A stretch of 64,000 nucleotides of DNA, from assembly GCF_003352085.1 (NCBI RefSeq), contig NZ_CP025804.1:3596001-3660000 (forward strand), written 5' to 3'. Position 1 is the first letter of the stretch. Each line of letters begins with the position of its first letter. The notes beneath the pieces are model-generated. The model saw only the letters and a program-made list of their open reading frames with translations. It was not told where the DNA came from and did not search any database. Source of the stretch: Sulfitobacter sp. SK012. GTDB taxonomy: Bacteria > Pseudomonadota > Alphaproteobacteria > Rhodobacterales > Rhodobacteraceae. Shown one piece after another: positions 26,783 through 54,744 of the stretch. The translations under genes were made by a program, and so were the position numbers.

Positions 26783-26918
26783 GTGGCAAACTTGGCGCTA
26801 AATCACCCCTCCGGGTCAAGACCAATCACGCCAATTTTTCCACTCAATGCTTCGCCAGCGGACAAGCTGGTGAACAGAAATCATGCCAAGCTGTGATCAA
26901 CCACGAACGGAGAAGCCA

Positions 26919-31281: not shown

Positions 31282-31283
31282 GC

Positions 31284-33112: not shown

Positions 33113-33412
33113 TTAAACGGGTAGCTCTGCCAAGAGTGCTGCCCAAGATGCGCCGTGCATATCACGATCATCAGCGGCCCCTTGAATGGTGGGCCGCGGC
33201 AGGCTGATCTTGATGACATTAAGCGATGGGATATCGAACCGCTTGAGGTCCTGAGACTTGGCACCCAGCGCGGTTGCCACGGCCGCGGTATCGAGCAGCT
33301 CAACAACGGTTTCATACGCCTCCGGCGATCCGCAGAAGATATCAATGGTCAACCAGAACGGCCCTGCGTTCTTGCTGCGTAGTTTTTGCACTAAGCTGCC
33401 CAGCGGCTTCAT
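33113..33412 (-). CDS. DUF4387 domain protein
   Basis: A 99-residue protein with the DUF4387 pattern: LGSLVQKLRSKNAGPFWLTIDIFC at the start, then ETVVELLDTAAVATAL and SLNVIKISLPRPTIQGAADDRDMHGASWAALL. No catalytic function is known. It is nearly always found with a DUF1446 (AtuA-type) gene, sometimes fused to it, and here the two overlap by four bases, which suggests a two-part complex. It is the last gene of the TRAP-linked operon. Confidence 0.88.
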   Translation of the reverse strand: MKPLGSLVQKLRSKNAGPFWLTIDIFCGSPEAYETVVELLDTAAVATALGAKSQDLKRFDIPSLNVIKISLPRPTIQGAADDRDMHGASWAALLAELPV

Positions 33413-34761: not shown

Positions 34762-34901
34762 CAGCGCGGCCCCTGCTTCGACAATAGCGGAAATAGCGTC
34801 ATAACAATCCCTCTCAATCTAAAACCAGATGCGCGCGAGGGGTACCACTTGTCAAGCCGAGGCCGTCCGCAAAGGAGCTCGATTTGATGTTGGGCAAGCC
34901 T

Positions 34902-34930
34902 GTGCAACCTGTTTGTGTAACAGGTCGCAC
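34902..34930 (-). other. Intercistronic hairpin between the TRAP permease and AtuA genes
   Basis: GTGCaACCTGTT and AACAGGTcGCAC pair over eleven positions with one internal mismatch and a TGTGT loop. On neither strand is it followed by a T-rich tract, so it is unlikely to be a strong terminator. Its place inside a likely operon suggests a processing or mRNA-stability element. Confidence 0.55.
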
Positions 34931-34960
34931 GGGTTGAGATTTAGGGTTCAGGGTTTTCCG

Positions 34961-36244
34961 CTATTGCAACGCATTCGGCAAAAACAGCGCAATGCTTGGG
35001 AAAGCGATCAACAGGAAAGCAAAGGCCAGCATCGTCAGGCAATAGGGTAGCGCGCCCAGCATAACTTCGTTCAGGCTTCCCGATTTCCGCGCCGCTTGCA
35101 CGACGTAAAGGTTCAATCCAACGGGCGGCGTAATGAGCGCCATTTCGATCAGAACAATCATCAAGATACCGAACCAGATCACATCATAGCCCTGCGCCAC
35201 AACCAGCGGCACGATGATAGGGATCGTCACGACCATCAGGGACAATGTTTCAATGAAGAACCCAAGAACAATATAGAGGACGACTACAACCAGAATGGTC
35301 TTGAGCGGCGTAAGACCCAGATCGGTCATAAAGGCTGTCAGCTCGCGTCCGAGACCTGCAGAGGCTAGCGTGAAGTTGAGGAACGACGCGCCAATCACAA
35401 TCAGCATGATCATCGAGGTGATCTTGACCGTGCCTGTCAGGCTTAGGGTCAGCATCGACCAAGACACGCCCCCAAAGGCAAGTGCGATAACGAATGCACC
35501 GGCCACGCCCACGGCGGCGGCCTCGGTTGGAGTGGCCCAGCCCAGATAGATTGAGCCGACGATCAAGCCAAACAGGATCAAGATCGGGATAAGATCAAGC
35601 AGCGCCCGCATCATTTGCGAGAACGGGAAAGTCCTGCGTACGCCTCCCAAATCGGGACGGATGAGGCAGATGATAACCGTGACCAGCATGAAGGAGAGCG
35701 CCAAGGCCAATCCCGGAATGAGCCCCGCCAAAAACAGCTGTGGGATCGAGGATTGCGTAAGAAAGCCGTAAACGATCAGGTTAATCGACGGCGGGATCAT
35801 GATGCCAAGCGTACCGCCAGCGGCAATGGCTCCGGAAAATAGCTTGGGGTCATAGCCGAGTTTTTCAGCTTGCGGCATTGCCACTGTGGCCACTGTCGCG
35901 GCGGTGGCGACGGACGATCCAGACGTGGCAGAGAACATGGTCGCCGTTGCAACATTCGCGTGGACCAACCCACCGGGCAGCCAAGATACCCAGCGATCAA
36001 GGGCGGCATAAGTGCGGGTCGCAACACCGCTGCGTACCAATATTTCGCCCAATAGGACAAAGAACGGAACGGCGATCAACGTTGAGGAATTGGAAGAGGA
36101 CCAGACCATGTTGCCCAGTCCGCGGGTCAGCGGGAAACTCGAAAAGAATGTATCGATCCCGAAACCGAGCAGAAACAGAACGATACCAACCGGGATGGAC
36201 AAGGCCAGCAAGCCGAGCAGGCCAACAGAGACATAAACGATCAT
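34961..36244 (-). CDS. TRAP transporter large permease subunit (DctM family), second set
   Basis: A 427-residue polytopic protein with the DctM hallmarks: LIAVPFFVLLGEILVRSGVA near residue 56, MFSATSGSSVATAATVATVAMP near 102 and GTLGIMIPPSINLIVYGFLT near 144, and NLYVVQAARKSG near 382. It pairs with the small permease gene that overlaps it by four bases. It differs clearly from the first large permease (3899-5185), so the two systems probably import different acids. Confidence 0.93.
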   Translation of the reverse strand: MIVYVSVGLLGLLALSIPVGIVLFLLGFGIDTFFSSFPLTRGLGNMVWSSSNSSTLIAVPFFVLLGEILVRSGVATRTYAALDRWVSWLPGGLVHANVATATMFSATSGSSVATAATVATVAMPQAEKLGYDPKLFSGAIAAGGTLGIMIPPSINLIVYGFLTQSSIPQLFLAGLIPGLALALSFMLVTVIICLIRPDLGGVRRTFPFSQMMRALLDLIPILILFGLIVGSIYLGWATPTEAAAVGVAGAFVIALAFGGVSWSMLTLSLTGTVKITSMIMLIVIGASFLNFTLASAGLGRELTAFMTDLGLTPLKTILVVVVLYIVLGFFIETLSLMVVTIPIIVPLVVAQGYDVIWFGILMIVLIEMALITPPVGLNLYVVQAARKSGSLNEVMLGALPYCLTMLAFAFLLIAFPSIALFLPNALQ

Positions 36245-36789
36245 TGCAGGCTCTCCTGTTCGGCGAAGGCACCAGCAAAGCTCTCGATTTCATCGTGGCG
36301 GCGTTTGACCAGCAAGCTGAGGGCGGCAAGTGTCACGAGACATGACATTACGGCGAACCAGACCCACCCCGCGAACCATGGCAACTGCACCCATGCCAGC
36401 GGTGTCTCAAGCGGTGTGTTTGCGCGCGATCCATTCACCAATGACCGCTCGACCACCGGCCAAGCCTTGATCGCGATGGTGATGATAACGCCCGACATAA
36501 CGATCATCGAAAACACATCAAACAAAGCGCGTTTGAAGCTGTCTGCACGGCAGCGCAGCAGGTCGATCCGCACATGGCCCAATTCGACCAGCGTGAAGGA
36601 CATGCCCCAAGAAGTCGCGAGCGCCATCGTGTAGCCCGCGATCTCTTCTGTGCCACCAAGGGACGTACCGATTTGGCGCATGATGATATCTGTCAGCACA
36701 AACGCAGCACACAGCAGCAGGCCAAAGCCTACGACAAGGGCGACCCCCCTATTGAGCCTGCGCAGCCCGTCTATCATCGTGAGTTCCAT
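36241..36789 (-). CDS. TRAP transporter small permease subunit (DctQ family), second set
   Basis: A 182-residue protein with four helices (about residues 14-36, 50-70, 92-112 and 135-158) and the DctQ pattern IIMRQIGTSLGGTEEIAGYTMALATSWGMSFTLVELGHVRID (shown in part by GGTEEIAGYTMALA). It bridges the binding protein and the large permease. It starts 29 bases after the binding-protein gene. Confidence 0.88.
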   Translation of the reverse strand: MELTMIDGLRRLNRGVALVVGFGLLLCAAFVLTDIIMRQIGTSLGGTEEIAGYTMALATSWGMSFTLVELGHVRIDLLRCRADSFKRALFDVFSMIVMSGVIITIAIKAWPVVERSLVNGSRANTPLETPLAWVQLPWFAGWVWFAVMSCLVTLAALSLLVKRRHDEIESFAGAFAEQESLQ

Positions 36790-36818
36790 TATCGGTACGT
36801 CCCCTATTCGGTGCTTAC

Positions 36819-37850
36819 TTAGTTGATTTGGACGCCAACAACGGTCCCAACGCTTTCATTCCAACGCGCGGCCCATTCGGCACCCGCACGCTCTGCCCAC
36901 TCTGGCAGCACTTCGCTGGTCAGAATATCGCGGGCCCGCGTGAAGTCTGCATCGCTCACCTCAACTAGCGTCATGGAGCGTGCATCACCCGATGGGCATT
37001 CACCGTTTCCGGTCAGGCAGGCGATGTCATTGGTCAACGCGTCTTGGGCGCTGTCCCATGCAAGGTCTTCAAAGCCGCTGGCAACCTGGGCTGTGATCAA
37101 ACCCTGCGTATCGGCGTCAAGACTGTTCCATTTGTCCATGTTGATTGCGGTCACAACCGGGTCCCAGCCGCCCAACGGGATTGGCAACAGATGGGTAGAG
37201 ACTTCCCACCAGCCGGCGCTATAGCCCGAACCCGCACCGGTGACGGCGCAATCGACCACACCGTTTTGCAGAGCACCAGGAACTTCGGCAAAGGACACGT
37301 TAACGCCCTCAGCACCCAAAGCTTCCAGCAGCTTGGCGGTCATACGACCTGACGCGCGGACTTTGAGGCCTTCGAGGTCAGCAAGGTTGGTGATCTCGTG
37401 ATTACAGAACACGACCTGAGGTGGATATGGCGCGATGGCCAGAACGTGGGAGTTAAAGCGATCGCGGTAAATATCGGCAACCATTGGGCGCGCGGCATCG
37501 ACCATGGCGCGGGCTTCATCCGCAGACAGCGCCAGAAGCGGTACATCAAGGCCTTCAAGTTCTGGTGCGTCGGCCACCGCATAATCCGCCACAGTCATCG
37601 CCACATCATAAACACCCTGACCCAGCAGCGGGTAGATATCGCCAAGCCCAAGGCTCATCTGGTTGTGCGTTGTGAGTTCAACATTGATGGAGCCGCCAGA
37701 CGCGTCGGGCAGTGTTTTTGTCCAAAAAGGCGCCTCATATTGGTTGTGCAATGGCAGGCTGGACCAGCTGCCTACGACGGACAGGTCTTCAGCAAAAGCA
37801 GGCGCGCTTAGCATGGTACCCGCGAGGAGGATGGATAGGGTTCTGTTCAT
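36819..37850 (-). CDS. TRAP transporter substrate-binding protein (DctP family), second set
   Basis: A 343-residue exported protein with signal peptide MNRTLSILLAGTMLSAPAFA. The mature part starts EDLSVVGSWSSLPLHNQYEAPFW; the binding-site region includes LADLEGLKVRASGRMTAKLLEALGAEGVNVSF near residue 160, with the conserved Arg in VRASGR, then AEVPGALQNGVVDCAVTGAG. Cys residues near 150, 210, 282 and 290 may form disulfides (CLTGNGEC is a close pair). It belongs to the DctP branch with long inserted C-terminus rather than the classical C4-dicarboxylate group. It is the second gene of the LysR-flanked operon. Confidence 0.9.
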   Translation of the reverse strand: MNRTLSILLAGTMLSAPAFAEDLSVVGSWSSLPLHNQYEAPFWTKTLPDASGGSINVELTTHNQMSLGLGDIYPLLGQGVYDVAMTVADYAVADAPELEGLDVPLLALSADEARAMVDAARPMVADIYRDRFNSHVLAIAPYPPQVVFCNHEITNLADLEGLKVRASGRMTAKLLEALGAEGVNVSFAEVPGALQNGVVDCAVTGAGSGYSAGWWEVSTHLLPIPLGGWDPVVTAINMDKWNSLDADTQGLITAQVASGFEDLAWDSAQDALTNDIACLTGNGECPSGDARSMTLVEVSDADFTRARDILTSEVLPEWAERAGAEWAARWNESVGTVVGVQIN

Positions 37851-37874
37851 TGTAGCTCTCCTAGTTGTTTTATT

Positions 37875-38699
37875 TTAAAGTGTTGTCAGGATTGTTGTTT
37901 CGGCGTCTTCGGCGACGTCAGCGATCAGCATGTGACCCGGCGAGTGGGTTATGCAGATCGGCAAACCGGCCTGCAGCAAGACATTTTGCGGGGTAACACC
38001 ACACGCCCAATAGACCGGAACTTCACCAGCCTTGATCTCAACCGCGTCGCCCCAATCAGGCATCGATAGATCAGCGATACCAATTTCCGATGGGTCACCC
38101 ACAGCAATCGGCGCGCCATGTGCATGCGGAAACCGACTAGAGATTTCCTTGGCCTGTGCGACCTGTGCCTCGGGGATCGGGCGCATGGTTACGACCATCT
38201 GACCACTGAATTTGCCCGCCGGCACCAGATCAATGTTTGAACGGTACATCGGCACATTACGGCTGGTTTCGATATGTCTTACCGGAATGCCATTGCGCAA
38301 CAGCGCGTTCTCAAAGGTGAAGGAACACCCCAACGCGACCGTGACCAGACTGTCCGACCAGATGTCAGAAATGTCAGTCACTTCATCACTCAGAGTGCCG
38401 TTGCGAAACACCCGATACTTGGACACATCAGTCCGAATATCGATGTCATGCCCCAACGTAGGCAGCATTGGATCGCCACTGTCGCTGACACCAACAATTG
38501 GGCAAGGCTTGGGGTTACGTTGGCAAAAACGCAGAAAATCCAACGCAAATTCTTCGGGAATAATGGCGATGTTACACTGCAACTTGCCTGCCGCGAGCCC
38601 CGCAGTGTGCCCGTCATATGCGTTGTCTCGAATAGCCATGCGCACATCGACAGCCGACGACGTGACCAAGTCACTGTAAGAAACAGTTGTATCGCTCAT
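37875..38699 (-). CDS. Putative hydro-lyase, DUF1445 family (D-glutamate cyclase-like)
   Basis: A 274-residue protein of the DUF1445 family (279 if the ATG at 38714 is used). Typical segments: AGLAAGKLQCNIAIIPEEFALDFLRFCQRNPKPCPIVG near residue 30, VTVALGCSFTFENALL near 120, NIDLVPAGKFSGQMVVTMRPI near 156 and the C-terminal YWACGVTPQNVLLQ and ITHSPGHMLIADV. The family is annotated as hydro-lyases; the human relative DGLUCY is a D-glutamate cyclase. First gene of the TRAP/AtuA operon, 24 bases before dctP, so it probably acts on the imported acid. Confidence 0.85.
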   Translation of the reverse strand: MSDTTVSYSDLVTSSAVDVRMAIRDNAYDGHTAGLAAGKLQCNIAIIPEEFALDFLRFCQRNPKPCPIVGVSDSGDPMLPTLGHDIDIRTDVSKYRVFRNGTLSDEVTDISDIWSDSLVTVALGCSFTFENALLRNGIPVRHIETSRNVPMYRSNIDLVPAGKFSGQMVVTMRPIPEAQVAQAKEISSRFPHAHGAPIAVGDPSEIGIADLSMPDWGDAVEIKAGEVPVYWACGVTPQNVLLQAGLPICITHSPGHMLIADVAEDAETTILTTL

Positions 38700-38766
38700 A
38701 GCAAAGCCCCCCATGGCCTAGCAAAAGCATCACATGCAGTCAGATTTCACGCAAATTGTCATTTTA

Positions 38767-38780
38767 TATCATTAGTGATA
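38767..38780. promoter_or_regulatory. Candidate LysR box ahead of the DUF1445-TRAP operon
   Basis: TATCATTAGTGATA has five-base arms TATCA/TGATA around TTAG and fits the T-N11-A pattern of LysR operators. It lies in the 78-base gap between the LysR gene (ends 38793) and the DUF1445 start, about 50-80 bases upstream of either possible start. Binding by the adjacent LysR is inference. Confidence 0.45.
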
Positions 38781-38792
38781 GATATTTTGAAT

Positions 38793-39671
38793 TCACTTTG
38801 GGTGGATCTTATCCCAAGTTTGGGCAACATCCTGGGCGATTTCCGCGCTGGCCTCGACCAAGAAGCTGCGCGGTTCTGACAGGTAAGACGCGGTAAAGGC
38901 TAATGGCTGTGGGCGAAAACCGGGATCGAATTCAACAATTTGACCAGATGCCAAAAAGTCATTTGCCAAAGCGCGCGGGTACGGCCCCACCGCAACCCCC
39001 GCCCCAATCATTTTGAGGCTTGCCGATAGGGAAGCGGAGGCAAACACCCGCACCTTTGGCCCGATCCTGCGCGACAGCTCTGACATGAGTTCACGGTAGG
39101 GCCGCGTCTTGGACGAATATGAAATCACTGGAATAATGCTCAGATCAGTCTGGCTGTTGGTTGCGGATCGATACCAGTGCAGATCAAAGGGTGGCAGCGC
39201 GACATTCTCGACCGAGAACTCGGACACCGGTCCCATCAACAGCGCCAAATCAAGCCGCCGTTCCAGCAGGGCCGCGCGTAGGTTCAGGGAAATATCGACG
39301 GTCAGGTCGACATTCACCCGCGGGTACCGCTCGCTGAAAGCCTTGAGAAATTCAGGCAACCAAGCCTGCGCAATTGTCTCTGATGCGCCGATGCGAAAAA
39401 GACCCTCGGCCTCAGACGGATTGGCAACGCGTTGCTTAATCTCTTCTTCAACGAACAACATCTGCTCGGCATAAGACAGTAAAAGCGTACCGTGTTTGGT
39501 CAGGACCAACTCTCCGGGTCCGCGCTCAAAAAGCGGGACGCGCAGCTCATTTTCAAGGTTGGCGATGCGCGTGGACACCGCAGGTTGCGACAGATGCAGC
39601 CGTTCGGCCGCTTTGCGAAAGCCGCCCAGCCGCGCCACCCAAAGAAAGGTCCGGATTTGATCGAAGGTCAT
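38793..39671 (-). CDS. LysR family transcriptional regulator
   Basis: A 292-residue regulator. The N-terminal helix-turn-helix is GGFRKAAERLHLSQPAVSTRIANLENEL (residues 16-43) followed by LFERGPGELVLTKHG; the C-terminal part is a periplasmic-binding-protein-like effector domain starting at LFRIGASETIAQAWLP. It is transcribed in the same direction as, and just before, the DUF1445-TRAP-AtuA genes and probably activates them in response to the transported acid. Unlike many LysR genes it is not divergent from its likely target. Confidence 0.9.
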   Translation of the reverse strand: MTFDQIRTFLWVARLGGFRKAAERLHLSQPAVSTRIANLENELRVPLFERGPGELVLTKHGTLLLSYAEQMLFVEEEIKQRVANPSEAEGLFRIGASETIAQAWLPEFLKAFSERYPRVNVDLTVDISLNLRAALLERRLDLALLMGPVSEFSVENVALPPFDLHWYRSATNSQTDLSIIPVISYSSKTRPYRELMSELSRRIGPKVRVFASASLSASLKMIGAGVAVGPYPRALANDFLASGQIVEFDPGFRPQPLAFTASYLSEPRSFLVEASAEIAQDVAQTWDKIHPK

Positions 39672-39831: not shown

Positions 39832-40500
39832 TCAATGGCCCCAATAGGCGGAATAGATGCCAAAAACGCCTACGATAATCAGGCTGATCGCCCAGACCAT
39901 ATCAAGGTTAAACCATGTCCGCGAAAGAAACTTGAGGCCAAGCCAGCGGTAGATCACCGTTGCAATGACTCCACCTGCGATGGTCATAGACAGCGTGTGA
40001 ACAGCGGCTACGGTAAAGGCGATGCTTATGTTGTTTGCCATCAGTGTTTGCGCAGCCAAATGGCCGGTCTGATCGGGTTCAATAGCGCAAATACCTAAGT
40101 AAATCGGAACCAGCATTAGCCCTGCCCCATGCGCCATCGCAGCAAGGAAAGACCACAATGCGAGGCGCGCAGGATGGACCCGCGCCAGAAACCTTGGGTG
40201 CCTTCGATTGATCAGCAGATAGATCCCCATCGCGATCACCAACAGACCGGCAGCAATGCGGATTTGAACTTCCCATTCGACAAGGAAGAACATCAGTGAA
40301 AAGGGCAGCAGGATACCAATCATCGCCAAGAAATGACCGGCGGCTAACATGGCAAGGGATTTGGGTAGTGCCGCGGGTCGGCGTTCCATCAGGGCTGCGG
40401 ACACAGCCAGCGGCCATCCCATACCGGGATTGATGCCGTGATAGAGACCAGAGAAAATGACGGCCCACCAAAGGGCCGTCAAAGAGGCAATGTCAGACAA
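39832..40500 (-). CDS. Six-helix membrane protein partner of the methanethiol oxidase
   Basis: A 222-residue membrane protein with about six helices. The first loop carries SGLYHGINPGMGWPLAVSAALMER (residues 17-40) with His and Asn in a conserved-looking setting, a second His is in LAAGHFLAMIG (near 55) and a third in LAAMAHGAGLML (near 121). The layout recalls the NicO/HupE/TauE kinds of small metal or anion transporters, but no family can be named. Only three bases separate it from the methanethiol oxidase gene. That enzyme binds copper, so copper delivery or export of a product such as sulfide-derived sulfite is possible; both are inference. Confidence 0.65.
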   Translation of the reverse strand: MSDIASLTALWWAVIFSGLYHGINPGMGWPLAVSAALMERRPAALPKSLAMLAAGHFLAMIGILLPFSLMFFLVEWEVQIRIAAGLLVIAMGIYLLINRRHPRFLARVHPARLALWSFLAAMAHGAGLMLVPIYLGICAIEPDQTGHLAAQTLMANNISIAFTVAAVHTLSMTIAGGVIATVIYRWLGLKFLSRTWFNLDMVWAISLIIVGVFGIYSAYWGH

Positions 40501-40503
40501 TCC

Positions 40504-41904
40504 TTAGACTGACGGGTAGCAGAAGCTATCGGTGGAGCAATCGCCCCCCTCTAGCCGGATTTGATGCGAACGCAGGCCCTTCGGGAAGTCGACATAGAAG
40601 TCTTTGTTCAACGTCAGACCGCCATTTTCGCCAACATCGGCCATGACCATCTGCCCACCTTCATCATCTGGGTAGAACTGATCGTCCCACGTGGAATAGA
40701 GCGAATTCGTCCAATAGACGCGTTTGCCATCCCGGCTGATTTCAACCATCTGCGGGCCGTAAGCAAAACCCTTGCCGTTGGGGTGCTTGTGGCCTTTGGC
40801 AATACCGCCAAGTTCGACCTTGCCGGCCAAAACCGGGTTCATCGGATCTGATACATCGTATTGATGCATCTCGCCCAGACCCCAGCACGCGACATAAAGG
40901 TATTTGTCATCAAGGCTCAGGTCGATGTCCGTCACGAGCGGTGGCACCGCGCCAAATCCCTGCAAGAGAGGCGGCAGGTTTGCGGGATCTTCGGGACGTG
41001 GATCAATGGTGATCGTTTTCTTGGACTGCCAAACCCCATCGTCATCGCGCCACCACGTAAAGATCGCACCCTGGAGGTTGGTTGTGTCCACCACAACACC
41101 ACAAAAACCGTAAGACTTGGTGGGATCATGGGCGGGCCGAATTTCCAGCGCCATTTGGTAGTTCTCACCAAAGTCCATGGTCTGGATGTTCTTGCGCGCC
41201 CGCAAATCCCAGAAGTGAATTGAGTGGCCGTATTTATTGGACAGCAAATCCTCAGGCACGATGCCATTTTCGAACTGAGGCGGCAGCCCCCATTCGGAGC
41301 TGACCATGTAATCTTGCGGAAGGTTCCACCAGAAATCGTAATGCTTGTCCTGCTTGCCTCGGTCCATCTCGTATTGGCCGATGATCTCAAAGGTTTCGCA
41401 ATCCATGATAAAGATACCAGGAGGGCCGTCTGTGCCATCTTTGCCGCCGCCGCCAAGGCAGGAGACATAAATGCCTTCAGGACCACAGTGGATCGTATGC
41501 GGACGCGAATAGCCGGTCTTGGCAAACAGCTCTTCGGGTTCAATTGTCTTATGAATGTGCGCCTTGAGCGGCTCTTTTACGTCGATAACGTAAATCCGCG
41601 AAGAACGGATACCCGGAACGATTAGATAGCGGCGCTCCAGAAATGCGTGTCCCGACAATGGGGACAATGAGGATGAACAGGCATTCCAGCCAAAGTGGTG
41701 AAATTCGTCCCCCTTATTGGGAACGATCACCTGATGGACGATCTCGCCGTACGTATCCGAGGACGGATCGAGATCGATAACGGCAATACCGTCCGACTGC
41801 GAGCCATCTGGGCTTAGCATTACTGTGAAAGCATAGTTTTCAACTGCTGCCTCCATCGCAAGTTTGGGTGATGCGTGAAATGTGGGGTCTGGTCTCAAGT
41901 TCAT
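40504..41904 (-). CDS. mtoX: Methanethiol oxidase, SBP56/selenium-binding protein family
   Basis: A 466-residue protein of the SBP56 family. Segments seen: DPSSDTYGEIVHQVIVPNKGDEFHHFGWNACSS (His-rich, near residue 54), PGIRSSRIYVIDVKEPLKAHIHKTIE (near 100), SRPHTIHCGPEGIYVSCLGG (near 130), HYDFWWNLPQDYMVSSEWG and the C-terminal LEGGDCSTDSFCYPSV. Family members in methylotrophs and Roseobacters oxidise methanethiol to formaldehyde, hydrogen sulfide and hydrogen peroxide. In marine bacteria methanethiol comes from DMSP demethylation. The start ATG at 41904 has GGGAGGA eight bases upstream, so the long upstream extension is not coding. The Hyphomicrobium partners SCO1 and MauG are absent here. 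Confidence 0.85.
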   Translation of the reverse strand: MNLRPDPTFHASPKLAMEAAVENYAFTVMLSPDGSQSDGIAVIDLDPSSDTYGEIVHQVIVPNKGDEFHHFGWNACSSSLSPLSGHAFLERRYLIVPGIRSSRIYVIDVKEPLKAHIHKTIEPEELFAKTGYSRPHTIHCGPEGIYVSCLGGGGKDGTDGPPGIFIMDCETFEIIGQYEMDRGKQDKHYDFWWNLPQDYMVSSEWGLPPQFENGIVPEDLLSNKYGHSIHFWDLRARKNIQTMDFGENYQMALEIRPAHDPTKSYGFCGVVVDTTNLQGAIFTWWRDDDGVWQSKKTITIDPRPEDPANLPPLLQGFGAVPPLVTDIDLSLDDKYLYVACWGLGEMHQYDVSDPMNPVLAGKVELGGIAKGHKHPNGKGFAYGPQMVEISRDGKRVYWTNSLYSTWDDQFYPDDEGGQMVMADVGENGGLTLNKDFYVDFPKGLRSHQIRLEGGDCSTDSFCYPSV

Positions 41905-42232
41905 GTTTTTCCTCCCGATGAAAAATTTACCCGCGTTTTTGGGCCGACTATTATTGTGCCCAGCTGGGCCAAAACCAAAAAGGCGCAAATTGGCGCCTCA
42001 AACTTTGCAAACTTTGGTACCTGCGCTGATCATCTCAAATGTGTTGATCAACCTAAGTGCATTTTCCTTTGTCTGATGAAATCTAGCCACCGCTTTCGCG
42101 GCGCTGCGATCCACTATCGTTAGAAAATCAAATCTGGCAATCCCTTCTAAAGATAGGTTTGGAATATCAGGCCCATGATCTGTGGGTTATTCAGCGCTGT
42201 GAATGAGGCCAACAGCCTTGGATCGGACGGGC

Positions 42233-43451: not shown

Positions 43452-43841
43452 CTATTTCGGCTGTTCCTCAAAGACCTTTCTTGCGGCACGAAAACACTCT
43501 AGCCCCTGCGGAACACCACAGTAGATCGCGATCACATGAATGATGGCGCGGATTTCTTCTTTTGAGACGCCGTTGTTGATTGCGCCGCGACAGTGCAATT
43601 CCCACTCGGACATCTTTCCCAAGGCACCGATCATCGACAAATTCATCATCGACCGCGTCTTGGGATCAATCACGTCATCGCCCCAACCAAAACCCCAACA
43701 CCACGCGGTCATTGCCTCTTGGAATGGCCGGGTGAAATCGTCCGCAGCAGCGAGGTTCTTTTCAACATATTCCGCCCCTAGCGTGGCTTTGCGTTGCTCT
43801 AGTCCTTTTAGGAATAGATCCTCGTCGAAAGTATCCATCAT
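43452..43841 (-). CDS. Carboxymuconolactone decarboxylase family protein
   Basis: A 129-residue protein of the CMD/PcaC family, without the CxxC pair of the AhpD peroxidase branch. Typical sequence: LEQRKATLGAEYVEKNLAAADDF, WGFGWGDDVIDPKTRSMMNLSMIGALGKMSEWELHCRGAINNGVS (catalytic-type Glu and His in EWELHCRGA) and IYCGVPQGLECFRAARKVF. PcaC decarboxylates gamma-carboxymuconolactone; there are no pca genes here, so it probably acts on another lactone or keto acid of the local pathway. It is the last gene of the GntR-led minus arm, 19 bases after the DUF1330 gene. Start ATG at 43841 (or 43838) with AAGGA upstream. Confidence 0.87.
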   Translation of the reverse strand: MMDTFDEDLFLKGLEQRKATLGAEYVEKNLAAADDFTRPFQEAMTAWCWGFGWGDDVIDPKTRSMMNLSMIGALGKMSEWELHCRGAINNGVSKEEIRAIIHVIAIYCGVPQGLECFRAARKVFEEQPK

Positions 43842-43860
43842 TTTTCCTTTTCGGTGCGGC

Positions 43861-44157
43861 CTATGCAGGCGGCATGCCCTCAACAATCACGATATTTGCA
43901 GTGCAAGCACCCGCGCGTTTATGTCGGGCCTCTTGATATTCGGCGGAGTTATAGCAAGCCAACGCCTGTGCTTTGCTCTCAAACTCGATCACGACATGCC
44001 GCTGCCATGTCTCACCCTCTAGCGTTTCCGCCTCCCCACCACGCACCAGAAATCGTGCGCCGTATTTGGCGAATGCCGCCGGGGCATGTTGCTGGTAGCC
44101 TGCGTAGACATCTGGGTTTGTTACGTCCACAAACGCGATCCAATATCCTTTAGCCAT
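43861..44157 (-). CDS. DUF1330 family protein
   Basis: A 98-residue protein with the dimeric alpha-beta barrel pattern of DUF1330: KGYWIAFVDVTNPDVYAGYQQHAPAAFAKYGARFLVRGGEAE, then RHVVIEFESKAQALACYNSAEYQEARHKRAG. No catalytic role is known for most members. It overlaps the end of the GntR gene by eight bases, so it is translated from the same mRNA. The ATG at 44157 is the family-like start. Confidence 0.87.
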   Translation of the reverse strand: MAKGYWIAFVDVTNPDVYAGYQQHAPAAFAKYGARFLVRGGEAETLEGETWQRHVVIEFESKAQALACYNSAEYQEARHKRAGACTANIVIVEGMPPA

Positions 44158-44854
44158 CTGCTGCTCCGGTCTTTGCTTCTTTGGACAATACACGCCACGC
44201 GGTCTGCGCTGCATCATCAATATGCGCATTTACGGCGATGCGGGCGGCCTTTGCGTTTTGGCTCAGGATCGCATCATGAATTGCCGTCATATGCTCGATG
44301 CCCGGCCTCTTGCGATCCTTGGAAGACAGGGTCAATGCGCGAAGCCTGCTGATCCGGCCATTCAACCGCTGCACAATTTCCCACGCGACACTGTGGCCCG
44401 CTTCTTCGAAAATAATCTCGTAGAACCGCGTGCTGGCCTGCAACAACTCTGTCCAAGTGGTGTCGTTCATGGTGGCTTCAAGCGCGCGCAACGCAGCACG
44501 CAACCGAACGACAAATTCTGCAGTTTGGTTCGCAGCACAAGCGACCGCGGCGGAGGCCTCAAGCTGCCTGCGTATGTCATAAATCTGTTTGGCTTGATCC
44601 CAGTCAAATGTCGCAACGATAGGGCCGCGGTTTGGGATGATCTCGACCAAGCCTTCCGCTTCAAGAAAGCGAATTGTCTCACGGATCACGGTGCGGCTGA
44701 CACCGAGTTGTTCACACAACGGGCGCTCCACCAGCCGTTCACCGGGGGCAAAATGGCCTTCGAAAATTGCAGTTTTCATCCGCTCTTGCACAATATCGCG
44801 CAATGTCCGCGGAGTTTTGTCGATTTTGGTCAGGGCAATTTTTTCTGAAGTCAT
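44150..44854 (-). CDS. GntR family regulator, FCD subfamily
   Basis: A 234-residue regulator. The winged helix-turn-helix spans RLVERPLCEQLGVSRTVIRETIRFLEAEGLVEIIPNRGPIV (about residues 40-80). The FCD domain follows from residue 90, with RFYEIIFEEAGHSVAWEI and a C-terminal HMTAIHDAILSQNAKAARIAVNAHI containing the His residues that ligate metal in FCD proteins. It starts 104 bases from the divergent DUF1185 operon, and a strong palindrome lies between. It probably represses both arms until a pathway intermediate binds. Confidence 0.92.
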   Translation of the reverse strand: MTSEKIALTKIDKTPRTLRDIVQERMKTAIFEGHFAPGERLVERPLCEQLGVSRTVIRETIRFLEAEGLVEIIPNRGPIVATFDWDQAKQIYDIRRQLEASAAVACAANQTAEFVVRLRAALRALEATMNDTTWTELLQASTRFYEIIFEEAGHSVAWEIVQRLNGRISRLRALTLSSKDRKRPGIEHMTAIHDAILSQNAKAARIAVNAHIDDAAQTAWRVLSKEAKTGAADG

Positions 44855-44894
44855 AAGAATTTATCTAACAGCAAGCCCTTGGAGCAACAAGAAT

Positions 44895-44932
44895 GATTGA
44901 CATATGGTCTGATGGTATACCATATGTCAATC
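44895..44932. promoter_or_regulatory. Nested palindromes: operator of the GntR regulator
   Basis: GATTGACATATGGT (44895-44908) and ACCATATGTCAATC (44919-44932) are perfect 14-base arms around ten bases. Inside, ATGGTATACCAT (44912-44923) is itself a perfect 12-base palindrome and matches the T-G-G-T-n-ACCA style of FCD-GntR operators. The right half of the large dyad is thus shared by both palindromes, giving two overlapping sites. Position, between the GntR gene and the divergent operon, supports control of both arms. Confidence 0.8.
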
Positions 44933-44958
44933 CAGATCATCCACCAAAGGAAATTCCC

Positions 44959-45561
44959 GTGCCTGCTGAAATCAGAAAAACCCTTCTTCACGTTGAAAAC
45001 ACCCTGATCGAAGGCGGCAAGGCTGCGCCAACACCCCTCAAGATGATCGCTGCGATGGCAGTGATCCGGAACCCATGGGCGGGGCAAGGTTTTGTCGAAG
45101 ATTTGGCACCAGGCATCCGAGATTGCGCATCTGAGCTGGGCGCATTGCTGACGGAGATGGTGTTGGATGCAGCAGGGGGCGGTGACATGGTCGAAGGGTA
45201 TGGCAAGTCCGCCATTGTGGGCCTCAATGGCGAAGTAGAACACGCCTCCGCCCTTATCCACACGCTTCATTTTGGCAATCATTACCGCAATGCTGTAGGT
45301 GCTAAATCCTATTTGTCTTTTTGCAATACGCGCGGTCCGGCCAACGCGCCGTTGATGATCCCGCTTATGGATAAAAACGACGGCGGCAGACGGTCGCACT
45401 ATCTCACAATCCAAACATCTGTTGCAGACGCGCCTGCCGCAGACGAAATTTTGATTGCTTTGGGTGCGTCAATTGGAGGCCGTCCTCATCATAGAATTGG
45501 TGATCGCTATCAGGACCTAAAGGAGTTGGGCCATGATGCTGAAAACCCTGCAGCTGTCTAA
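44959..45561 (+). CDS. DUF1185 ('amino acid synthesis') family protein
   Basis: A 200-residue protein of the DUF1185 family. Motifs: TPLKMIAAMAVIRNPWAGQGFVEDL near residue 28, DMVEGYGKSAIVGLNGEVEHASALIHTLHFGNHYR near 78 (Gly-Lys and Glu-His pairs) and a C-terminal ADEILIALGASIGGRPHHRIGDRY. Structures of family members are known but the reaction is not. GTG at 44959 is the start because AAAGGA lies eight bases upstream; the frame extends further up but would run through the operator. It overlaps the next gene by 29 bases. A decayed relative lies at 12770-13213. Confidence 0.88.
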   Translation: MPAEIRKTLLHVENTLIEGGKAAPTPLKMIAAMAVIRNPWAGQGFVEDLAPGIRDCASELGALLTEMVLDAAGGGDMVEGYGKSAIVGLNGEVEHASALIHTLHFGNHYRNAVGAKSYLSFCNTRGPANAPLMIPLMDKNDGGRRSHYLTIQTSVADAPAADEILIALGASIGGRPHHRIGDRYQDLKELGHDAENPAAV

Positions 45562-46345
45562 GTCTGGTCTAAAGGTCTGCTACCGCGATCAAGGTGTTGG
45601 TGAACCACTGGTGTTGATCCACGGCGTCGGATTGCAATCCGCAGCTTGGGGCCCACAGACAGCGGCGCTTCAGGACGTTTGCCGCGTGATTGCGCTTGAT
45701 ATGCCGGGACATGGCGGCAGCGACCCTCTGCCAACAGGCAGTCAGTTACCCGATTTCGTTGCTTGGTGCCATGCAGCGGTTTTGGAGCTTGGGCTGGGGC
45801 CCGTCAATCTGGCTGGGCATTCGATGGGTGCTTTGATCGCAGCTGGATTTACAGCTCGGCATCCCGATCTGACACGCCGTGTTGCTTTGCTGAATGGGGT
45901 TTATCGTCGCGATGATATTTCACGCCACGCTGTTGAAGCACGTGCCGCAGAGATTGAACGTGGAAATGTCGATCTAGAAACACCTTTGACGCGGTGGTTT
46001 GGGGAAACCGCAATAGAACTTGATGCCAAAGCGCAAGTAGCAACATGGTTGGGTGCCGTTGATCTAACTGGGTATGCGACGGCCTACACGGCCTTTGCGC
46101 ATGGGGATGCGACCTATGCCGACCAGTTGCCGAACATCGCCTGTCCGTTTCTGAGCATCACTGGCGACGGCGATCCGAATTCCACACCAGACATGTCGAT
46201 TGCAATGGCAAAACTTGTGCAAAACGGGACAGCAATTACCATCAAAGGTCATCGCCATATGGTCAATCTTACGGCGGCCTCCGAGGTCAATGCGCATCTT
46301 CTCACGTGGCTTAAAGTGCCAACCACTCAAAAGGAATTGCAATGA
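45533..46345 (+). CDS. Alpha/beta fold hydrolase
   Basis: A 270-residue cytosolic hydrolase. The oxyanion segment is LVLIHGVGLQSAAWGPQ near residue 26, the nucleophile Ser is in LAGHSMGALIAAG near 98, the acid is in ITGDGDPNSTP near 212 and the His is in IKGHRHMVNLT near 243. The closest well-known relatives are 3-oxoadipate enol-lactonase (PcaD)-like and related C-C or ester hydrolases. AAGGAG lies eight bases before the ATG although the start is inside the DUF1185 gene, and its stop overlaps the flavin reductase start by four bases. It likely cleaves the oxygenated product of the monooxygenase. Confidence 0.88.
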   Translation: MMLKTLQLSKSGLKVCYRDQGVGEPLVLIHGVGLQSAAWGPQTAALQDVCRVIALDMPGHGGSDPLPTGSQLPDFVAWCHAAVLELGLGPVNLAGHSMGALIAAGFTARHPDLTRRVALLNGVYRRDDISRHAVEARAAEIERGNVDLETPLTRWFGETAIELDAKAQVATWLGAVDLTGYATAYTAFAHGDATYADQLPNIACPFLSITGDGDPNSTPDMSIAMAKLVQNGTAITIKGHRHMVNLTAASEVNAHLLTWLKVPTTQKELQ

Positions 46346-47259
46346 CCCCTCTTGATCCGCGCGCGCTGCGCACTGCTTTTGGCACGTTCATGACTGGCGT
46401 CACCGTCGTTACAGCGCATGACCAAAATGGAGAACCGATGGGCTTCACGGCCAACTCCTTTACATCGGTGTCGCTGGATCCACCCATGGTGCTGGTTTGT
46501 CTCGCCAATTCTTCTCGGAACTACGATGCTTTGGTGCAGGCGAAAGGCTTTGCGGTGAACATTTTGGCCGAAAGCCAGATTGAGATTTCCAACACCTTTG
46601 CGCGCCCCGTAGAAGACCGCTTTTCAACCGTCGAATGGCACAACGGCCCCCAAGGATCGCCAATACTTGCAGGCGCTTCGGGCTGGTTTGATTGCAGCAT
46701 GCACAAGACAGTCGAAGCTGGGGATCATGTCATCTTGATCGGGCAAGTTGAGGCGTTTGACAGCACCACCACGCCTGGCTTGGGCTATGCGCGCGGCGCT
46801 TACGTGACCCCCTCCTCCGCTGCTGATGCTCTATCCCAAAGCACCAACCTCATTGTCTCTGCACTGATCGAGCGAGATGGGCACGTCTTGTTGGTGGACG
46901 ACGGCAATGGCGGATTGGCCTTGCCGGAATGTTTGGTCAAGGACGAAGGGGCATCTGCGGCAGTCAAAAACCTCATCGCATCGACAGGGCTGCATGCTCA
47001 ACCCGGCTTTGTGTATTCGGTTTTCGAAGATGTGAACCGCAAACGGCAGCATATTTCCTTCATGTGCCAGTCAGCAGAGGGTGCACCAACCAAAGGTGTC
47101 TTTGTGCCTCTTACCGGGTCTGGGCTTGATGATGTGACCGATCCGTCCATTCTAACGATGCTGGAACGGTTCGCCGCTGAGTCTGCACTTGGAAATTACG
47201 GCATCTATTACGGCGATCAAAAAAGCGGCGAAGTCCGCCCAATTACTTTAGGGAGTTGA
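46342..47259 (+). CDS. Flavin reductase with a fused C-terminal Nudix-like domain
   Basis: A 305-residue two-domain protein. Residues 1-160 are a flavin reductase of the HpaC/RutF type (LRTAFGTFMTGVTVVTAHDQ, GFTANSFTSVSLDPPMVLVCL, GSPILAGASGWFDC, HVILIGQVEAF) that would supply reduced FMN to the luciferase-like monooxygenase encoded next. From residue 170 a Nudix-like beta-alpha pattern follows: LIVSALIERDGHVLLVDDGNGGLALPE and ASAAVKNLIASTGLHAQPGFVYSVFED. The Nudix box is degenerate: where R-E-x-x-E-E is expected there is A-V-K-N-L-I, so hydrolysis is unlikely and a ligand-sensing or docking role is more plausible. Both neighbours are coupled by overlap or a four-base gap. Confidence 0.85.
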   Translation: MTPLDPRALRTAFGTFMTGVTVVTAHDQNGEPMGFTANSFTSVSLDPPMVLVCLANSSRNYDALVQAKGFAVNILAESQIEISNTFARPVEDRFSTVEWHNGPQGSPILAGASGWFDCSMHKTVEAGDHVILIGQVEAFDSTTTPGLGYARGAYVTPSSAADALSQSTNLIVSALIERDGHVLLVDDGNGGLALPECLVKDEGASAAVKNLIASTGLHAQPGFVYSVFEDVNRKRQHISFMCQSAEGAPTKGVFVPLTGSGLDDVTDPSILTMLERFAAESALGNYGIYYGDQKSGEVRPITLGS

Positions 47260-47263
47260 TGAC

Positions 47264-48301
47264 ATGCGGTTTTCGCTTTTTGTTCATATGGAACGTACAT
47301 CACCGGAGCAGGACCAAAGACAGCTCTATGACGACTTCATCGCATTGGCCAAAATAGCTGATGAGGGCGGCATGCATGCCGTTTGGACCGGCGAACATCA
47401 TGGCATGGATTTTACCATCGCGCCGAACCCATTTCTCAACCTGATTGACCTCGCGCGTCACACCAAAAATGTGCGTCTGGGAACAGGTACAATTATCGCA
47501 CCATTTTGGCACCCAATCCGTTTGGCTGGTGAAGCAGCGATGACGGATATGATTGTCGATGGACGTCTGGAACTTGGCATTGCCCGAGGTGCCTATAGCT
47601 ATGAATATGAACGGATGGTGCCGGGTATGGATGCGTGGGATGCGGGCATGCGGATGCGCGAATTGATCCCTGCCGTGCAAGGTCTGTGGAAAGGTGATTA
47701 TGCCCAAGAAGGTACCTATCATTCCTTCCCTGCATCAACTGCGTCGCCAAAGCCTGTACAAAAAGATGGTCCGCCAATCTGGGTTGCCGCACGTGATCCG
47801 AATAGTCATGAATTTGCGATCTCAAATGGGTGCCATGTTCAGGTGACGCCGCTTTGGCAAGGAGACGGTGAAATCACGAATCTGATGGATACATTCACTG
47901 CGGCTCTTGCGAAGTTTCCGGATGTCCCACGCCCGGAAATCATGTTGCTTAACCACACATACATCGCAGCGGATGCAGAGGATGCTCAGCTGGCCGCCGA
48001 AGAGATCAACCGCTTTTACTGCTACTTTGGCGCATGGTTCAAAAATGAACGACCTGTATCGCAAGGTTTGATCGAGCGGCTCACAGATGAAGAGATCGCA
48101 AATCACCCCTTCTATTCTGCGCAAGCTATGTTGCGCGATAACGTCATCGCCACCGCCGGCGACGCCATTTCGCGGCTCAAAACTTACGAAGACATGGGGT
48201 ATGATGAATACTCATTCTGGATTGACAGCGGCATGAGTTTTGACCGCAAAAAGGCGTCGCTTGAGCGGTTTATCAAAGACGTCATGCCGGCGTTTGCCTA
48301 A
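47264..48301 (+). CDS. Luciferase-like (LLM class) flavin-dependent monooxygenase
   Basis: A 345-residue TIM-barrel monooxygenase of the bacterial luciferase family: ADEGGMHAVWTGEHHGMDF (with the EHH signature) near residue 28, NVRLGTGTIIAPFWHPIRLAGEAAMTDMIVDGRLELGIARGAY from about 69, and the ATAGDAISRLKTYEDMGYDEY segment near 287. It uses FMNH2 from the reductase encoded five bases upstream to insert oxygen into its substrate. The family includes alkanal, nitrilotriacetate and alkanesulfonate monooxygenases; nothing in the sequence fixes the substrate. Seven bases separate it from the aldehyde dehydrogenase gene. Confidence 0.92.
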   Translation: MRFSLFVHMERTSPEQDQRQLYDDFIALAKIADEGGMHAVWTGEHHGMDFTIAPNPFLNLIDLARHTKNVRLGTGTIIAPFWHPIRLAGEAAMTDMIVDGRLELGIARGAYSYEYERMVPGMDAWDAGMRMRELIPAVQGLWKGDYAQEGTYHSFPASTASPKPVQKDGPPIWVAARDPNSHEFAISNGCHVQVTPLWQGDGEITNLMDTFTAALAKFPDVPRPEIMLLNHTYIAADAEDAQLAAEEINRFYCYFGAWFKNERPVSQGLIERLTDEEIANHPFYSAQAMLRDNVIATAGDAISRLKTYEDMGYDEYSFWIDSGMSFDRKKASLERFIKDVMPAFA

Positions 48302-48308
48302 AGGACAT

Positions 48309-49778
48309 ATGATGCAGCATTTTCAGCAATATATTGGCGGCGCATTCTCAGATGGATCCGCGCAATTCGAAAGCCGCAACCCTGCGACGGGAAACGTCTG
48401 GGCGATGATGCCAGAAGCGCGTGCGCAAGATGTGGACGCTGCGGTAGATGCGGCTCACGCGGCTTTTGCCTCCCCATATTGGGCGGGTATGACGGCCTCG
48501 GCGCGCGGAAAGCTTCTGTACCGGCTTGCAGATCTGATCACACAGAATGCGCAATCACTAGCGGCTTTAGAAACGCGTGACACCGGCAAGATCATCCGCG
48601 AAACCTCAGCGCAGATTGCTTACGTCGCAGAATATTACCGCTACTACGCCGGTCTGGCCGATAAAATCGAAGGCACGCATCTGCCCATCGACAAGCCCGA
48701 CATGGAGGTTTGGTTGCGTCGAGAACCCATCGGCGTTGTTGCGGCCATCGTTCCGTGGAATTCGCAGCTGTTTCTGTCTGCCGTCAAAATCGGGCCTGCC
48801 CTAGCTGCCGGGTGTACCGTGGTTCTGAAAGCATCCGAAGAAGCACCTGCCCCGATGTTGGAATTTGCGCGCGTCTTTGACCAGGCCGGTTTTCCGCCTG
48901 GTGTGCTAAACATTATTACCGGGTTTGGGGCCGATTGTGGGGCCGTTCTGACATGCCATCCAAAGGTAGATCATATTGCATTCACTGGCGGCCCGGAAAC
49001 CGCACGCCATATCGTGCGAAATTCGGCTGAAAACCTTGCATCAACGTCTCTGGAACTTGGCGGAAAATCTCCGTTCATCGTGTTTGAGGACGCCGACATC
49101 GAAAGTGCGGTCAACGCGCAAATCTCTGGAATTTTTGCGGCCACCGGACAAAGCTGTGTGGCGGGATCTCGGTTGATCATCTCCAACAAAATCAAAGATG
49201 CGTTTCTGGCGCGGCTTAAGGAAAAGGCTGAGGCTGTGGTCATCGGTGCCCCTGATGATATGGCAACCGAGGTCGGGCCGCTTTGCACCCTTGGCCAATG
49301 CGAGACGGCGGTTGATTTGGTGGCGCGTTCCAAAGCGGCAGGGGCGATTGTCATCACAGGTGGCGAGCGATTGGACCGCGACGGGATATATTTCCCGCCA
49401 ACGATTATTGATTGTTCAAACGCGCCTGATGCGCCGTGTCTTACAAGCGAATTCTTCGGTCCTGTGTTGTCAGTTTTGAGTTTCGATACAGAAGAAGAAG
49501 CGCTGTACATCGCCAATGATACGGCGTTCGGTCTGGCTTCTGGCGTCTTTACCAAAGACCTCACCCGCGCCCACCGCATGATCCGCAACATTCGAGCAGG
49601 CATTGTCTGGGTGAATACATACCGGGCGGTTAGCCCCATTGCCCCATTTGGAGGCCACGGCCTGAGCGGTCACGGACGCGAAGGCGGATTGCAAGCCGCA
49701 CTGGACTACACAAAAACTAAGGCTGTCTGGCTAAGAACCAGCGACGAACCGATCCCCGACCCATTTGTCATGCGGTGA
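48309..49778 (+). CDS. NAD-dependent aldehyde dehydrogenase
   Basis: A 489-residue aldehyde dehydrogenase of normal length. The cofactor region is VVAAIVPWNSQLFLSAVKIGPALAAGCTVVLKASEEAP near residue 140; the catalytic Glu is in STSLELGGKSPFIVF (near 252) and the catalytic Cys in FAATGQSCVAGSRL (near 284). The C-terminal signature ASGVFTKDLTRAHRMIRNIRAGIVWVN is also present. The ATG at 48309 has AAGGA four bases upstream; a second ATG follows directly. It closes the operon and should oxidise the aldehyde released after oxygenation and hydrolysis. Confidence 0.93.
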   Translation: MMQHFQQYIGGAFSDGSAQFESRNPATGNVWAMMPEARAQDVDAAVDAAHAAFASPYWAGMTASARGKLLYRLADLITQNAQSLAALETRDTGKIIRETSAQIAYVAEYYRYYAGLADKIEGTHLPIDKPDMEVWLRREPIGVVAAIVPWNSQLFLSAVKIGPALAAGCTVVLKASEEAPAPMLEFARVFDQAGFPPGVLNIITGFGADCGAVLTCHPKVDHIAFTGGPETARHIVRNSAENLASTSLELGGKSPFIVFEDADIESAVNAQISGIFAATGQSCVAGSRLIISNKIKDAFLARLKEKAEAVVIGAPDDMATEVGPLCTLGQCETAVDLVARSKAAGAIVITGGERLDRDGIYFPPTIIDCSNAPDAPCLTSEFFGPVLSVLSFDTEEEALYIANDTAFGLASGVFTKDLTRAHRMIRNIRAGIVWVNTYRAVSPIAPFGGHGLSGHGREGGLQAALDYTKTKAVWLRTSDEPIPDPFVMR

Positions 49779-53390: not shown

Positions 53391-54744
53391 GAAGGTTGGC
53401 GGCGTATCTGGTTGATTTGTTGTTGCGAGACAGCAGCCCAACCGAAGGAGATACACCACCATGGAAACGACTAACATTGTTGATTTTTCGCGTCGAGACG
53501 GGATCACGGACGCGCTGACGGATTTATTGAGAACAGGAGCGCAGCAATTGATCGCAACAGCCGTTGAAGCTGAGCTTGAAAGCTATCTGTCTCAGTTTAC
53601 CACCGCGCGCACTGAGGCCGGTCATGCGACTGTTGTGCGCAATGGGCATCATCCCGAGCGCCCGTTCCAAACGGGCATCGGCCCCGTGAACGTGCGCATT
53701 CCCAAGGTTCGCTCAAAAAACGGCCAGCCCGTGACATTCCATTCGGCCCTGGTGCCACCGTACGTGCGCAGAACCAAAACGTTGGAAGCGGCCTTGCCAT
53801 GGCTGTATCTGAAGGGCATCTCCAGCGGTGAAATGGGCTCGGCTCTCAAGGTTCTTCTGGGCCCTGATGCGGCGGGATTGTCGGCAAATACGGTCTCACG
53901 GCTCAAGCGCGATTGGGCCAACGAATACGGCGAGTGGAGAAAGGCAGCGTTGGACGATGAGCCCTTGGTCTACATCTGGGCTGACGGTGTCCACAGCGGC
54001 CTTCGGGGCGAGGATGACAAGCTCTGCGCCCTTGTGATTGTGGGGGTAACAGCCCGTGGCAAGAAGCGGTTCTTGGCTATTGAGGACGGGGTGCGCGAGT
54101 CCACGCAGAGCTGGCGCGAGGCTCTCCTCAGCCTCAAAAGCCGGGGAATGAACGCCCCGAAACTTGCTATTGGAGATGGTGCCATGGGGTTCTGGGCCGC
54201 CATAGATGAAGTCTATCCTGAGACCCGTCATCAACGCTGTTGGCAACACAAAACTATGAATGTGCTCAACTGTTTGCCCAAGCTGTCTCAGCCAAAGGCC
54301 AAAGCTGCGATCCACAACATCTGGCAGGCTGAGACCAAAGATGATGCGGGCAAGGCCTTAGATTTGTTCATCAAAACCTACGAACCCAAATACCCCAAGG
54401 CGACGCTGTGCCTGCAAAAGGACCGCGAGGAACTCATGGCATTCTTCGACTTTCCAGCACAACACTGGCAAAGCATCCGCACCAGTAATCCAATTGAATC
54501 CGCCTTTGCCACGATCCGTCATCGCACCAAACGATCAAAGGGCTGCCTCTCACGCGCCGGCATGCTGCACATGATGTTCAAGCTGGGGCAATGCGCCGAG
54601 CAAAACTGGAGGAAACTACGCGGCTTTGACTACCTCGCCAAAGTCATCACCGGCGTCGCATTCAAAGACGGAATTGAAGCCACTGAAAACAGCCAGATCG
54701 CCGCATGACCAGAAACCCTTAAACACCAGATTTGACAATAACTC
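53358..54744 (+). mobile_element. Complete IS256-family insertion sequence with target duplication
   Basis: A 1387-base element with one transposase gene. Its ends are imperfect inverted repeats of about 33 bases (53358-53390 and 54712-54744), both starting GAG-TAT and sharing the exact core AATCTGGTGTTT. Directly outside, GAGGTTTGA occurs at 53349-53357 and again at 54745-54753, a perfect nine-base target duplication of the size expected for IS256. Ends, gene and duplication are all intact, so the insertion is recent and may still move. It landed between the AraC gene and the cation exporter gene and breaks no recognisable gene. Confidence 0.95.
53461..54708 (+). CDS. IS256-family transposase (Mutator type)
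   Basis: A 415-residue DDE transposase of normal length. The catalytic region includes the first Asp in VYIWADGVHSGL near residue 177, the second in KLAIGDGAMGFWAAIDEVYP near 241, the CWQHKTMNVLNCLPK motif (C-x2-H) just after, and the Glu in SNPIESAFATIRHRTKRSKG near 350. The N-terminal part has DALTDLLRTGAQQLIATAVEAELESYL, typical of the group. The ATG at 53461 has AAGGAG upstream. The frame is intact end to end, so the protein should be active. Confidence 0.97.
   Translation: METTNIVDFSRRDGITDALTDLLRTGAQQLIATAVEAELESYLSQFTTARTEAGHATVVRNGHHPERPFQTGIGPVNVRIPKVRSKNGQPVTFHSALVPPYVRRTKTLEAALPWLYLKGISSGEMGSALKVLLGPDAAGLSANTVSRLKRDWANEYGEWRKAALDDEPLVYIWADGVHSGLRGEDDKLCALVIVGVTARGKKRFLAIEDGVRESTQSWREALLSLKSRGMNAPKLAIGDGAMGFWAAIDEVYPETRHQRCWQHKTMNVLNCLPKLSQPKAKAAIHNIWQAETKDDAGKALDLFIKTYEPKYPKATLCLQKDREELMAFFDFPAQHWQSIRTSNPIESAFATIRHRTKRSKGCLSRAGMLHMMFKLGQCAEQNWRKLRGFDYLAKVITGVAFKDGIEATENSQIAA

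Follow-up and report, generated by a model that had tools for sequence, protein, structure and literature searches.

A predicted trigonelline (tgn) operon in the marine roseobacter Sulfitobacter sp. SK012, with candidate roles for conserved helper proteins

What does a compact set of eight genes, arranged in two divergent arms around an apparent operator, degrade in a marine roseobacter? The genes lie in the window, a stretch of 64,000 nucleotides from Sulfitobacter sp. SK012 (NZ_CP025804.1, positions 3,596,001 to 3,660,000), and a preliminary description had presented them as a GntR-controlled oxidative system around DUF1185 with no pathway match. Our comparisons point instead to a tgn operon for the catabolism of trigonelline (N-methylnicotinate), a reading to which we assign a probability of roughly 85%. 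It is very likely that the cluster represents an already described pathway, here in a different host lineage and with its accessory genes reshuffled, and the main reading is not new. The evidence is homology, gene order, operator conservation, and candidate downstream genes.

Comparison of open reading frames and profiles in the window recovered eight genes, with the strands, overlaps, and gaps first described, and a tightly packed five-gene arm does stand opposite a GntR/DUF1330/CMD arm. On the minus strand are genes for a CMD-family, PcaC-like protein (43452..43838; PF02627, E 1.4e-18), a DUF1330 protein (43861..44157; PF07045, E 9.5e-34), and a GntR/FCD regulator (44150..44854; PF00392 and PF07729), the latter two overlapping by 8 bases, given the DUF1330 start used here. 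The plus-strand arm encodes a DUF1185 (AA_synth) protein with a GTG start, equivalent to TgnF (44959..45561), an alpha/beta hydrolase equivalent to TgnD (45533..46345), a flavin reductase equivalent to TgnA with a degenerate Nudix-fold C-terminal domain (46342..47259), the equivalent of TgnB, the oxygenase component of trigonelline monooxygenase (47264..48301), and an aldehyde dehydrogenase equivalent to TgnC (48312..49778), for which an ATG at 48309 is also a possible start. The DUF1185 start was corrected to the GTG at 44959 because the aligned starts of relatives (74 ATG, 7 GTG, and 1 other; n = 82) coincide with it. AAAGGA is located 5' of this codon, and the alternative upstream ATG (44893) is two bases ahead of the operator repeat.

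A gene-neighborhood search, the check that the preliminary description had proposed, found this order to be already known. Among plasmid records, a protein search matched tgnB of Acinetobacter sp. PK01 (NZ_CP094644), a flavin-dependent trigonelline monooxygenase. At that locus, DUF1330 and GntR genes diverge from DUF1185-hydrolase-tgnA-tgnB-tgnC, in the order of the window, and the operator core is shared. All eight window proteins have a PK01 counterpart at 44-70% identity: CMD 49%, DUF1330 53%, and GntR 49% on the regulator arm, and DUF1185 70%, hydrolase 52%, TgnA 44%, TgnB 69%, and TgnC 70% on the other, the TgnA, TgnB, TgnC, and TgnF comparisons being with PK01 or other Acinetobacter proteins. 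There are also differences. PK01 carries a cytosine permease, a hypothetical gene, a succinate-semialdehyde dehydrogenase (SSADH), and the CMD protein 3' of tgnC, with sarcosine-oxidase-like genes past DUF1330, whereas the window has its CMD gene on the regulator arm and is without a linked SSADH or transporter.

The assigned names agree with this match. Two proteins named trigonelline monooxygenase resemble TgnB of the window, one from Acinetobacter (69% identity) and one from Roseobacter fucihabitans (88%). The hydrolase shares 52% identity with a protein of A. baylyi whose name is given as (E)-2-((N-methylformamido)methylene)succinate hydrolase (TgnD); the tgn names in these records are homology-based predictions. 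The catalytic residues are conserved as well. Ser97, Asp214, and His242 of the hydrolase are invariant in 83 of 83 aligned sequences, leaving the triad intact, and Cys282 and Glu248 of TgnC are invariant in 87 of 87. Five of the features by which we judged tgn membership are present, namely TgnB, an adjacent TgnA, TgnC with its catalytic Cys and Glu, the TgnD triad, and TgnF (DUF1185). A weaker point for the tgn reading is TgnA, which shares no more than 44% identity with its PK01 counterpart over 295 aligned positions. With the PK01 names for tgnA, tgnB, and tgnC, the TgnD name, and TgnF, the gene order is already assigned to the characterized tgn pathway, and the claim of no pathway match falls. 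Luciferase-like monooxygenase (LLM)/flavin-reductase pairs act on many substrates, and three of the window proteins lack an assigned role, which would suit an uncharacterized pathway acting on a different compound, as the preliminary description had supposed. Eight of eight proteins match one named locus, divergent arms included, and we regard such a pathway as very improbable.

For trigonelline as the substrate, TgnA would supply reduced flavin, with which TgnB would open the pyridinium ring. The ring-opening product, (Z)-2-((N-methylformamido)methylene)-5-hydroxybutyrolactone, would be oxidized by TgnC to (E)-2-((N-methylformamido)methylene)succinate, which TgnD would then hydrolyze; these intermediate names are taken from gene names in sequence records. 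Much of the scheme first put forward is retained, namely oxygenation by the flavin pair, oxidation of an aldehyde, cleavage by the hydrolase, and GntR control, but the order of steps changes: by the tgn enzyme names, the dehydrogenase acts before the hydrolase. In work by Perchat in 2018, trigonelline reportedly yielded methylamine, formate, CO2, and succinate semialdehyde as end products. These may be consumed by two candidates that are not linked to the operon, a succinate-semialdehyde dehydrogenase and a gene set of the gamma-glutamylmethylamide/N-methylglutamate type. A comparable logic is seen in the rut operon of E. coli for uracil, where, according to the available part of PMC8113886, a monooxygenase/flavin-reductase pair also opens an N-heterocycle, the regulator is divergent, and RutC and further enzymes process the open chain.

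The candidate genes for these last steps lie elsewhere in the genome. The best genomic SSADH, a candidate TgnE (C1:4446151), is 55% identical to the PK01 SSADH and scores above the TIGR01780 cut-off, and it may be an ordinary GabD. Within a 19.9-kb stretch lie a type III glutamine-synthetase-like gene and a trimethylamine monooxygenase, both above cut-off, along with MGS-like genes and a sarcosine-oxidase-like set of four genes. We read the first as GmaS, the MGS-like genes as MGS, and the four-gene set as N-methylglutamate dehydrogenase; since the genome has three sarcosine-oxidase-like large subunits, 33-36% identical to that of PK01, the last assignment rests on the neighboring genes. Neither the SSADH nor any gene of the 19.9-kb stretch is linked to the tgn operon. 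Given the unlinked SSADH and the GmaS/MGS-like genes, both methylamine and succinate semialdehyde could be used. No homologue of the PK01 permease was found in the genome, and, as had been observed at the outset, no transporter is attached to the window operon.

To place the operon among its relatives, we used 84 loci, the best 80 of 579 genome loci plus four plasmid loci chosen by hand among 40 listed matches, with the three loci of the window's own genome (L001-L003) excluded. Because only the best 80 of 579 were kept, this sample is biased to close relatives, and the counts below apply to it. The five genes occur in order in 72 of the 84 loci. At least one copy of TgnC and of TgnB is found in all 84, of DUF1185 in 82, of TgnA in 81, of GntR in 80, and of the hydrolase in 77, followed by DUF1330 (59), CMD (24), SSADH (24), and a PK01-type permease (12). 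Of the 12 loci without the ordered set, six (L007, L019, L020, L021, L069, and L075) have the hydrolase in place by tblastn; L013 starts within or just 5' of the hydrolase at a contig end, and the contig of L065 spans 3.3 kb. More broadly, the key gene, tgnB, is fairly common in the window's family: of 394 sampled genomes, close to one per genus, 65 have a match at E<=1e-100. In a sample of 60 rows taken across 1006 plasmid records, TgnB identity falls from 63.8% to 42.0% with nothing between. A diverged second TgnB in L068, full length and 57% identical to that of the window, lies inside this gap.

The control region is shared among these relatives. The strong operator claimed between the arms is present as a perfect inverted repeat (44895..44932) with 14+14 arms at 44895-44908 and 44919-44932, and its core, ATGGTATACCAT (44912..44923), is conserved in relatives and occurs as a single exact copy in the 5.18-Mb genome. 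Among 83 DUF1185 upstream regions, the window's included, GGTATACCA is exact in 69, and 82 have it exactly or as a listed variant. The sequence TGGTATACCA occurs 68 times in the 1,505,014 bases of the relatives' loci and is present in 67 of their 82 DUF1185 upstream regions. A -35-like element, TTGAC, lies at 44897..44901 (plus strand) in the window; in 57 of the 69 regions with an exact operator, this element stands 9-16 nt 5' of that operator, in 54 of them at 12 nt. A sigma-70 scan did not score the putative promoter containing TTGAC. The most economical interpretation is a dedicated GntR site that would overlie a promoter; promoter, repression, and binding are all things that we infer. Through the single site ATGGTATACCAT, the GntR protein would probably repress the two arms together.

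Could the substrate be homarine (N-methylpicolinate), an isomer of trigonelline, instead? Such an operon would use the same ring cleavage and oxidation, leading to N-methyl-dehydroglutamate and then N-methylglutamate, and thus would need no SSADH. The homarine operon attributed to Ferrer-Gonzalez in 2026, homABCDER, is said to consist of five genes and a regulator, a number equal to that of the window. The tree offers some grounds for a separate specificity. With L001 and rows below 35% identity removed, leaving 86 rows, the window TgnB falls in a distinct 15-row clade with 100/100 support, and linked SSADH is missing from all 14 loci of that clade, three of them under 15 kb, compared with 8 of 30 loci with SSADH in the sister roseobacter clade (Fisher p 0.041). 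However, conserved changes specific to the window's clade are nearly nil: TgnB has three, and TgnA, TgnC, the hydrolase, DUF1185, and GntR have none, when the clade is compared with all other groups, including Acinetobacter (L046 and L065 left out). The sister-clade tgn loci (30, e.g., L033 and L036) share the five genes, regulator, and operator with the window. A 560-aa ORF, read from its sequence as a BCCT transporter, is linked in 8 of those 30 loci and in two others; no locus of the window's clade has it linked. The accessory genes are kept only partly within the window's clade (CMD in 5 of 14 loci, DUF1330 in 8 of 14), yet the window retains both, as does PK01, and this too argues against homarine.

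The marine setting of the relatives would favor homarine, which reaches up to 2.7 nM in particles in the corrected values (PMC10134881), compared with 1-300 pM for trigonelline in seawater particles (PMC8269262, as far as the accessible text goes). The correction lowers the published homarine values to 1/25. A homarine pathway of environmental bacteria is also in print, with Mgd reportedly participating (Ferrer-Gonzalez 2026). Still, the authors of PMC8269262 considered TgnA/TgnB action on homarine unlikely on steric grounds, a sentence that the correction (PMC10134881) leaves standing, and each of the 65 positive genomes (of 394) carries a single TgnB copy at E<=1e-100, never two. We consider homarine an unlikely substrate for the window operon, and trigonelline remains our preferred reading. 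The excerpts of PMC8269262 also say that R. pomeroyi DSS-3 grows worse on homarine than on trigonelline. We set this comparison aside as evidence against homarine, as sentence and experiment were deleted in PMC10134881 because the homarine standard contained picolinic acid.

The preliminary description had called the reductase a flavin reductase-Nudix fusion, which is right as to fold. By sequence, residues 4-302 of the 305 in TgnA align with S. meliloti SMa0793 (3RH7), and the C-terminal domain (residues 168-293; 46843..47220, plus strand) takes a Nudix fold by structural match of a model with mean pLDDT 78 and pTM 0.53. Pfam lists no C-terminal Nudix domain for the window TgnA. The active-type Nudix box, GX5EX7REUXEEXGU, is missing from the window TgnA and from all of the relatives in the 84-locus sample (best 80 of 579 plus four plasmid loci), and in this respect the name does not hold. 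TgnA is also not always linked, because no reductase gene occurs in the main clusters of L009, L056, or L068; their hydrolase-tgnB spacings of 54, 11, and 167 bases are too short for one. The L087 cluster is without the reductase and most of the hydrolase, and none of these four sequences contains an N. Some hosts must therefore rely on a different flavin reductase, or else their set is broken or there is a second one.

What remains of value at this locus is its three conserved helper proteins (DUF1185, DUF1330, and the PcaC-like protein), DUF1185 above all, for which testable roles can be proposed. The window DUF1185 is, by homology, the counterpart of TgnF, at 70% identity to a PK01 locus protein that is not itself named TgnF. 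Excerpts of PMC7913881 describe TgnF as a DUF1185 homologue and as a reported stimulator of TgnE-dependent oxidation of succinate semialdehyde. The same excerpts concern HcdD of Pseudomonas mandelii 7HK4, also a DUF1185 protein within a catabolic operon and likened to TgnF by its authors, although the substrate differs (7-hydroxycoumarin) and they were unable to demonstrate an effect of HcdD. DUF1185 has solved structures and a chorismate-mutase-like fold, and we found no established reaction for DUF1185 in the accessible text of the literature searched.

By analogy, unassigned proteins of the locus could act on otherwise-spontaneous pathway steps. DUF1185 might accelerate hydrolysis of the methyl-enamine that would remain after deformylation, as RutC does on 3-aminoacrylate; the PcaC-like protein might accelerate CO2 loss from 2-formylsuccinate to give succinate semialdehyde; and the box-less Nudix domain of TgnA might sense a ligand and so gate flavin reduction. 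This proposal is tentative, and we judge it more doubtful than probable. If true, the DUF1185 family would gain an enzymatic role, and the stimulatory effect on TgnE reported for TgnF would be explained. The CMD protein scores 117.6 bits against TIGR02425 (PcaC), under the cut-off of 155.7 for equivalog status as a 4-carboxymuconolactone decarboxylase. Its residues E78 and H82 are invariant in all 20 aligned sequences.

A sequence match to TgnA, the flavin reductase with a Nudix-fold C-terminal domain, has a structure in PDB entry 3RH7. The entry, titled 'putative oxidoreductase', is SMa0793 of S. meliloti, and its sequence matches residues 4-302 of the 305 in TgnA; SMa0793 is probably the trigonelline reductase of S. 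meliloti. In three of the relatives' tgn clusters (L009, L056, and L068), the interval between the hydrolase gene and tgnB lacks a reductase gene and is too short to hold one.

In five Burkholderiaceae loci (L058, L064, L066, L068, and L087), the opposite strand carries a second tgn-like set that has diverged, with identities of 40-43% for TgnA and 37-40% for the hydrolase. The second set of L068 additionally includes DUF1185 (73%), TgnB (59%), and TgnC (67%), each measured against the closer query. These second sets possibly represent a related pyridinium pathway. Among the plasmid matches to TgnB, four LLM proteins (H57-H60) on replicons of Rhizobium, Ensifer, and Mesorhizobium stand apart from TgnB, with 39-42% identity across their full length. 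A homologue of the 560-aa transporter-like ORF, at G000:C1:3590420-3591775, has a single TAA within the matched frame.

On the minus strand of the window, 39832-41988 holds an SBP56-family gene and, after it, a 222-aa ORF that has no match in Pfam; the SBP56-family gene scores 122.8 bits, far under the methanethiol-oxidase cut-off of 650. Genes for an AtuA-like protein, a TRAP transporter (DctM/DctQ/DctP), a D-glutamate cyclase-like protein, and a LysR regulator (33409-39671, minus strand) form a set separate from the tgn operon. A trimethylamine methyltransferase (MTTB) family gene lies near a molybdopterin-binding oxidoreductase subunit (26883-31356), and a Mutator-family transposase gene (53461-54708, plus strand) is found 3.7 kb past the operon.
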